A DNA stretch of 64,000 bases from Cytophagaceae bacterium (GTDB taxonomy: Bacteria; Bacteroidota; Bacteroidia; Cytophagales; Flexibacteraceae), in contig CANGYH010000001.1 in assembly GCA_947458545.1 (NCBI GenBank), positions 1,426,001 to 1,490,000 on the forward strand. Direction: 5' to 3'. A model generated the notes under the pieces. It saw only the letters and a list, made by a program, of their open reading frames with translations, did not search any database and was not told the DNA's origin. The translations under genes and the position numbers were made by a program. This document shows, piece by piece, positions 25,768-64,000 of this stretch. Numbering within the stretch: the first letter of the stretch is position 1; every line of letters starts with the position of its first letter.

Positions 25768-25931
25768 ACCCGCCGCACCGCAGGCAGGGATGCGCAAGGG
25801 CAACAACGCAAGGTGGGCTGGGTTTAGTTTGCCTAAGCGGGCAGTTTGCGGGCCCTCTGCGGTTTTGTGGGCAAGCTGTATGTGGGGGCGTTTGATTAGC
25901 CCATTATCCGCACCCCACGCCCTCCGTGTGA

Positions 25932-26019
25932 GCGGTCTGGAGACCGCGGGGTAACGGCTGCCTAGGTCCCGGTCAGAGACCGGTACCAGCGCGTTGGGGG
26001 GAGACCGGGACCAGCGCTA
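25932..26019. repeat. Cluster of short inverted and direct repeats
   Basis: Includes GCGGTCT-GG-AGACCGC (25932-25947), CCGGTC-AGA-GACCGG (25969-25983) and two direct copies of GACCGG(T/GA)ACCAGCGC-type sequence near 25978 and 26003. It lies between the divergent promoters of sprE and scoB. No ORF is present. It looks like a dispersed intergenic repeat. Confidence 0.6.
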
Positions 26020-26053
26020 CACTTTCAACTCTCAACTCTCAACTTTCAACTCC
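26020..26053 (+). repeat. Heptad array (CAACTYT)4 upstream of the scoB promoter box
   Basis: CAACT occurs at 26026, 26033, 26040 and 26047, exactly 7 nt apart, with a degraded copy before. The last CAACT begins 14 nt, two periods, before CCTTTG of the -7 box. The same arrangement recurs at 63728-63762. Confidence 0.8.
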
Positions 26054-63133: not shown

Positions 63134-63709
63134 TTAGGATACCCGCTCCACCACGCGCCCATCCACCAGGCGGTAGACCTGGCCAGTTTCCGGACACAAG
63201 GCCTGCCCGTCGGGCCCGAAGGTCAGCTTGTGCCCATACTCAGACACCCAGCCCGCCTGCCGGGCGGGGTTGCCCATCACCAGGGCAAAGGCCGGCACGT
63301 CTTTGGTCACCACGGCCCCGGCCCCGATGAGCGCAAACGCCCCAATGCTGTGGCCGCACACGATGGTGGCGTTGGCCCCGATGCTGGCCCCCCGGCCCAC
63401 GGGCGTGGCCTTGAACTCGTCGCGGCGGATGATGGCCGAGCGCGGGTTGATCACGTTGGTAAACACGCAGCTCGGGCCCAGAAACACGTCGTCCTCGCAG
63501 GTGACGCCCGTGTAGAGGCTGACGTTATTCTGCACCTTGACGTTGCGCCCCAGCGTAACGCCGGGCGACACGACCACGTTTTGCCCCAGGTTGCACCGCT
63601 CGCCCAAGACGGCCCCGGGCATGATGTGCGAAAAGTGCCAGATTTTGCAACCGTCTCCAATGACGGCGCCCTCGTCAATAACAGCAGTAGGGTGTGCGTA
63701 GTACGACAT
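63134..63709 (-). CDS. Left-handed beta-helix sugar N-acetyltransferase (WbpD/WlbB-like)
   Basis: A 191-residue hexapeptide-repeat acyltransferase: VIDEGAVIGDGCKIWHFSHIMPGAVLGERCNLGQNVVVSPGVTLGRNVKVQNNVSLYTGVTCEDDVFLGP shows the repeats, and VFTNVINPRS and VCGHSIGAFALIGAGAVVTKDVPAFALVMGNPA complete the WbpD pattern (3-N-acetylation of UDP-diaminouronate for O-antigen). It fits with wecC, whose product starts the diaminouronate route, though far away. ATG 63709 lies 5 nt after a GACCTTTG box. Confidence 0.88.
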   Translation of the reverse strand: MSYYAHPTAVIDEGAVIGDGCKIWHFSHIMPGAVLGERCNLGQNVVVSPGVTLGRNVKVQNNVSLYTGVTCEDDVFLGPSCVFTNVINPRSAIIRRDEFKATPVGRGASIGANATIVCGHSIGAFALIGAGAVVTKDVPAFALVMGNPARQAGWVSEYGHKLTFGPDGQALCPETGQVYRLVDGRVVERVS

Positions 63710-63727: not shown

Positions 63728-63762
63728 AAAGTTGAGAGTTGAGAGTTGAAAGTTGAGAGTTG
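63728..63762 (-). repeat. Heptad array (CAACTYT)5 upstream of the N-acetyltransferase promoter box
   Basis: On the minus strand CAACT starts at 63762, 63755, 63748, 63741 and 63734, a strict 7-nt period. The last copy begins 14 nt before CCTTTG, as at 26047/26061. Confidence 0.85.
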
Positions 63763-63819
63763 TGGCGCGGGCGGTTGGCCCACCTTTGCTTCCATCCGCA
63801 TTGCTTCCAATGTTCTGTG

Positions 63820-63836
63820 CAATGGCTTTGCCATTG
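63820..63836. repeat. Perfect 7-3-7 hairpin, GGC-TTT-GCC core
   Basis: CAATGGC, loop TTT, GCCATTG, with GTG and CAC flanks that extend the symmetry. Confidence 0.65.
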
Positions 63837-63848
63837 TCACGTGCTATG

Positions 63849-63865
63849 GCGAGGCTGTGCCTCGC
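63849..63865. repeat. Perfect 7-3-7 hairpin, GGC-TGT-GCC core
   Basis: GCGAGGC, loop TGT, GCCTCGC, 12 nt after the previous hairpin. Same size and core, different arm sequence. Confidence 0.65.
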
Positions 63866-63926
63866 GTGAAGGCCAAGGCGGCAGAGATGGCAGGATGTTA
63901 GAGGGCCTAGGGGGTGCGGTTTGTAG

Positions 63927-63979
63927 CGCGGGCAGTAGCCCGCGAGGCCTGCGTATTTACCCCGGGCTAAAGCCAGGGG
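63927..63979. repeat. Two further palindromes with GGC...GCC cores
   Basis: CGCGGGC-AGTA-GCCCGCG (63927-63944) and CCCCGGGCT-AA-AGCCAGGGG (63960-63979, one mismatch). No ORF overlaps them. Together with the two hairpins before, the last 200 nt of the window are a repeat island without gene. Confidence 0.6.
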
Positions 63980-64000
63980 CTACTGAAAAGTGTCTGCTCT

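Follow-up and report, generated by a model that had tools for sequence, protein, structure and literature searches.

The window analysed here is a stretch of 64,000 nucleotides (C1:1426001-1490000) from a Cytophagaceae genome of 3.23 Mb in nine contigs that is 99.7% complete. Near its right end, a hexapeptide acyltransferase gene (63134..63709, minus strand; Pfam Hexapep, 3.7e-20) lies downstream of an array of 4.7 AACTYTC heptads found with TRF (63730..63762, minus strand), which itself stands directly upstream of ...CGACCTTTGCCCCTATG. Flush with this array is a degenerate hairpin of the REP type that we term C (GTGGCGCGGGCGGTTGGCCCACC; 63762..63784, plus strand). It falls below our pattern threshold and was recognised by manual comparison with the intact C-array junctions at the loci L010, L013, L016 and L051. 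Positions 63811-64000 hold four hairpins, each with a loop preceded by GGC and followed by GCC. Three of them have perfect 7-bp stems (63820-63836, 63849-63865 and 63927-63944) and the fourth, at 63960-63980, is imperfect (CCCC.GGC-TAAA-GCC.GGGG). Three or more stems of at least 7 bp per 190 nt occurred in 0 of 2000 first-order Markov shuffles (mean 0.08), no other separate 190-nt stretch in the window equals the stem count of this island, and its DNA fold z-score is -2.7. The original prediction, which placed four hairpins with GGC/GCC stem tops in an island free of ORFs, is thus right on the hairpins and also holds for the coding content, as the reading frames crossing the region are mechanical only and the one of 92 amino acids has no Pfam match. 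Strong intergenic hairpins could also be expected of a conserved structured RNA, a terminator or an attenuator that serves the host, but this explanation is extremely unlikely, since a search of Rfam gave no match for the hairpin element, the element was not detected in relatives and its sequence matches the ends of transposase genes.

The hairpin cluster is the left arm of a longer repeat that runs beyond the edge of the window. Searching the genome with the last 301 bases of the window returned 55 matches, most of them to a 171-bp unit with 72-92% identity and many of them forming inverted pairs 400-900 bp apart. The composite is non-coding, about 0.6-1 kb long and present at a dozen or more places, with about 40 related places in the genome. 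We defined its REP units by reading the sequences and then by pattern. In the window, the left arm (63815..64000, plus strand) comprises, all on the plus strand, unit A (63815..63868) with its hairpins A1 (63820-63836) and A2 (63849-63865), a degenerate unit B with four mismatches (63868..63893), the GTAG-tagged hairpin C (63923..63944) and D1 (63960..63983). D2 follows just beyond the window end and the element continues to about window-equivalent position 64773 (L009 2274), its right arm reading D2'-B'-A2'-A1'. Between the two inverted arms at this locus the reading frames are again mechanical, and the one tested has no Pfam match. A tetranucleotide of the GTAG type stands at the hairpin foot in C and B, and A, E, F and I start with CT or GCT.

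Across the genome, the canonical layout is A1-A2-B-C-D1-D2, a centre of Cx, Gx and either E or F, and D'-C'-B'-A'. The units follow one another at near-constant offsets in both arms (34, 19, 52-55, 35-37, and 30 or 44), the arms are inverted and the copies end at A. Two opposed arms are found at about eleven loci (L009, L010, L011, L013, L016, L017, L018, L019, L020, L024 and L025), several of which lack single units or parts. The arms align end to end with their inter-hairpin spacers included (81% over 217 bp in L010), and homology from copy to copy ends at hairpin A. Being mosaics of several REPs in alternating orientation, the unit maps have the make-up of BIMEs. The dispersed REP/BIME-like element that had been proposed is therefore borne out by the genome search, which adds a conserved order of units.

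A different account would have various REPs insert independently into shared intergenic hot spots, with no composite unit at all. REP sites are indeed clustered in parts of the genome, and ten 20-kb stretches picked regardless of repeats contained one marginal unit match and no heptad array; the F doublets at L012, L024 and L027, moreover, resemble later additions. Constant order and offsets together with homologous spacers across unrelated loci are what such an account does not predict, and neither are inverted arms with sharp ends at A, so that we consider it very unlikely. As to the genomic distribution itself, REP units and AACTYTC arrays are frequent on the ends of C1 and on C2-C9 and nearly absent from about 150 kb to 1.4 Mb of C1, outside the window. 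With dnaA at C2:77.4 kb, this empty zone may be the terminus side. Composite copies also lie close to contig ends (the ends of C3 and C9 and the start of C7), which suggests that the assembly breaks at the composite repeat.

A tree of nineteen arms contains two well-supported groups with little structure within them, close to a star. L009 and L017 each carry one arm from either group, and the two arms of L013 (1604-2347) are 98% identical to each other compared with a mean of 83% between loci, which suggests that the L013 arms exchanged sequence recently or stem from a young inverted duplication. Taken together, the mixed arms at L009 and L017 and the identity at L013 indicate that arms have exchanged sequence by recombination or gene conversion, and this process could account for part of the spread of the composite. 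The overall pattern fits a burst of spread followed by exchange between arms. Separate descent of the arms by side was rejected, as identity between loci is equal for arms of the same side (0.832) and of different sides (0.833). Nested insertion of successive REP pairs in the manner of a Russian doll is disfavoured because the spacers between the hairpins are homologous between the arms as well.

The original prediction had also pointed to a RAYT-type transposase gene elsewhere in the genome. Seven were found (L030 to L036; 89-107 bits against the NF047646 cut-off of 80), most of them flanked by their own hairpin pair, in addition to one IS200-type TnpA (L029; 75.2 bits against the NF033573 cut-off of 55). 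The predicted catalytic residues H64/H66 and Y147 are invariant in an alignment of six RAYT proteins, and the named relatives of these RAYTs are nearly all from Bacteroidota. In seven of the eight Y1-transposase genes the upstream and downstream flanks share an inverted double-hairpin repeat (E 1e-16 to 1e-25); among the RAYTs these are L030 and L032-L036. The flank comparison gave no such repeat for L031, which has related hairpins on one side only. Judged by sequence similarity, most hairpin families can be assigned a transposase of the genome. The flank of L035 (C6:80.2 kb) matches unit A of the composite copies with E values down to 4e-23, that of L036 matches E (3e-19), that of L034 matches F (1e-16), that of L029 (C1:1638.8 kb) matches D (4e-11) and that of L030 (C1:1593.8 kb) matches I (3e-13). 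The sequence pairing of A, D, E, F and I with their transposases is strong. It is weaker for B, whose link to L031 (C9:18.4 kb; best E 4e-5) rests on 26-29 bp, as L031 has no inverted repeat between its flanks. Units E and F sit inside composite copies other than that of the window. L032 matches composites only via a nearby C-type hairpin, and neither its own end (G1) nor the end of L033 (H) was present in the composites tested. No owner for C or Gx was found among the eight transposases of the genome, and a search for an owner of C among RAYTs of relatives or named loci gave none in 570 kb. Short intergenic palindromes tied to a RAYT of the same genome, as described for REPs and REPINs, are thus found strongly for A, E, F and I and weakly for B. 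L029 (1441-1914) has the Y motif YIKNQRAHH and lies between inverted double hairpins of type D. Subclass 1.2 TnpA proteins, which this motif fits, are described as generally lacking typical ends (PMC6006769), yet D-type ends are present here.

These assignments also bear on the question whether the composite is an ordinary MITE, mobilised by a DDE transposase, whose long terminal inverted repeat contains REP hairpins by chance. Arms that form inverted repeats of about 200 bp round a non-coding centre would suit such an element, but the composite terminates at the A hairpin, a sequence that also flanks a Y1 transposase gene, and we regard a DDE-moved MITE as improbable.

The window contains a second heptad array (4.6 AACTYTC copies by TRF; 26021..26052, plus strand) upstream of a CoA-transferase gene. 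Four base pairs from it lies the outer end of REP unit I (I2, I1 and a partial third stem; 25930..26016, plus strand). The second array beside a repeat cluster that had been reported at this site does exist, but the cluster belongs to family I and not to A-D. A genome-wide pattern search gave at least 33 AACTYTC arrays, some of them at loci selected for their REPs, and the counts below apply to the 33 arrays that we read. For these heptads a reversed pattern could not serve as a control, since reversal merely yields the repeat itself in a shifted register. Many arrays stand no more than tens of bases from a start codon, and an ACCTTTG box often follows directly. In 22 of the 33 arrays read, a REP unit occurs within 150 bp on the upstream, gene-distal side, and in none of the 33 within 150 bp downstream. 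Given the ten nearly empty 20-kb stretches, this pairing is far above the expectation for a uniform distribution, which is not a null model of REP-rich intergenic regions. The suspected pairing of arrays and palindromes is therefore no coincidence of two loci, but neither is it a fixed unit, as for 10 of the 33 arrays the adjoining 300 bp upstream are free of REP units.

One could nevertheless think of a single mobile element of which the heptad array is a part and which provides the gene behind it with a promoter. In keeping with this idea, the REPs keep to one side of the arrays, nine loci have REP I at a distance of 3-10 bp from their array (eight of them at 3-5 bp, in constant orientation), the exit sequence TCTCCC(G/A)ACC recurs downstream of several arrays (window, L010, L016 and L038), and the intact array pattern was found in only 1 of 38 relatives. 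The ten arrays with no REP nearby argue against it, as do the composites L011, L018, L019, L020 and L026, which lack an AACTYTC array. Furthermore, the unrelated REP families I and C both abut arrays (C at 1-8 bp at four loci), the CGACCTTTG -7-like box also occurs in the window without an array, and other heptad types exist in this genome (AATTARR, and TTATCTC inside composites) and in the family member G006, in which the composite was not detected. We therefore consider a single element of this kind unlikely, and the proposal that the repeat brought or contains a promoter is unsupported. The array is best regarded as a promoter-proximal repeat in its own right, with REPs settling at its outer edge. 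Insertion or retention would probably be favoured on the gene-distal side, and selection would remove insertions between array and gene. With regard to the other heptads, TTATCTC is a third type that lies inside some composite centres (L012 2158-2200; L011, L013 and L016), and G006 has numerous AATTAGG/AATTAAG arrays on many contigs.

Overall, the REP/BIME-RAYT reading of the island is supported. We think it probable that the composite is a non-coding repeat put together from terminal hairpins that belong to several HUH/Y1 single-strand transposases of this genome, and that it spread as a unit bounded by A. Each transposase gene would be, or would have been, an IS200-like unit with inverted hairpin repeats at its ends. 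The families A, B, C and D would then have contributed units that were linked in a fixed order to form an arm of some 200 bp, which came to be present as an inverted pair round a variable centre (Cx, Gx, E or F). The A-bounded unit may subsequently have reached at least a dozen intergenic sites, where the copies would now be diverging. Because homology between copies stops at A, RAYT-A (L035) appears to be the likeliest mobiliser of the composite; transposition of a composite this large by a RAYT is undocumented in the openly accessible literature that we searched. The most specific account, in which the ends of several single-strand transposases including a subclass 1.2-like TnpA were fused, RAYT-A mobilises the product and the heptad arrays act as sites of REP landing or retention, is put forward tentatively and as a whole is rather doubtful.

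Subclass 2.6 TnpA-REP proteins (RAYT group 5) are known mostly from Bacteroidetes, where their genes are flanked by atypical secondary structures with copies elsewhere in the genome, at a mean of 1.8 intragenomic copies (PMC6006769). Six RAYTs of the present genome approximately fit the motifs of this subclass (NH[LIV]H, with SH in two proteins; WQ; a YIH[QN]NP-like motif; SS) and are likewise flanked by hairpins with copies elsewhere. In contrast to that mean, there are six copies here, each with its own double-hairpin end, and the ends of several systems are fused in one dispersed element. Transposase genes with flanking inverted repeats, some of them double-palindromic and with copies elsewhere, have been described as TIRtrons or TIRYTs, and about 10% of REP dimers in S. 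maltophilia are hybrids of two families (PMC3733652). The genes described here resemble the former, whereas the composite differs from the latter in combining at least four families in fixed order, in its inverted arms and in being itself repeated. Ordered REPIN clusters, one of them mixing two groups, are known from SBW25 (PMC2817692, PMC3116915). Like BIMEs and REPINs, the composite is intergenic, palindromic, linked to RAYTs and organised as an inverted pair, but the elements described there consist of one or two REP families, while the composite mixes RAYT and IS200-type TnpA families and is several times the length of a REPIN. BrickBuilt, a MITE of Porphyromonas gingivalis for which promoter activity was reported (PMC4596501), is also a repeated intergenic Bacteroidota element with inverted ends and tandem repeats; its tandem array lies inside the element, whereas the AACTYTC array lies outside the element end and is separable from it. 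Direct repeats of the heptamer TAACTGA, which stand immediately before start codons in some Bacteroidetes among others (PMC4679880), are comparable to AACTYTC in position and differ in the heptamer; in the portion of that source considered here an association with REPs, as seen for the AACTYTC arrays, is not described. Likewise, no composite of four families is described in the openly accessible literature searched, which is no proof of novelty.

Searches of 38 relatives did not detect the composite, and when two candidates were scored in each of 291 genomes of the order, only matches of 23-28 bp in two genomes were obtained outside its own genome. The organisation of the transposase genes is more widespread. 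Of 76 named Bacteroidota RAYT loci whose flanks were long enough, 53 have an inverted repeat between the flanks, compared with 3 of 150 mismatched pairs, and by a strict count the repeat contains at least two hairpins at 20 of these 53 loci. Genomes of the order commonly have several RAYTs; the relatives G029 and G030 have 21 and 14 RAYT profile matches, respectively. Inverted hairpin ends are thus common around the RAYTs of Bacteroidota, a little-studied group, and REPs can settle directly beside promoter tandem arrays. In the genome studied here several RAYT systems exist side by side, most of them tied to their own hairpin, and their ends are fused in one repeat. Specificity, cross-mobilisation and the way in which BIME-like mosaics arise step by step can thus be tested directly.
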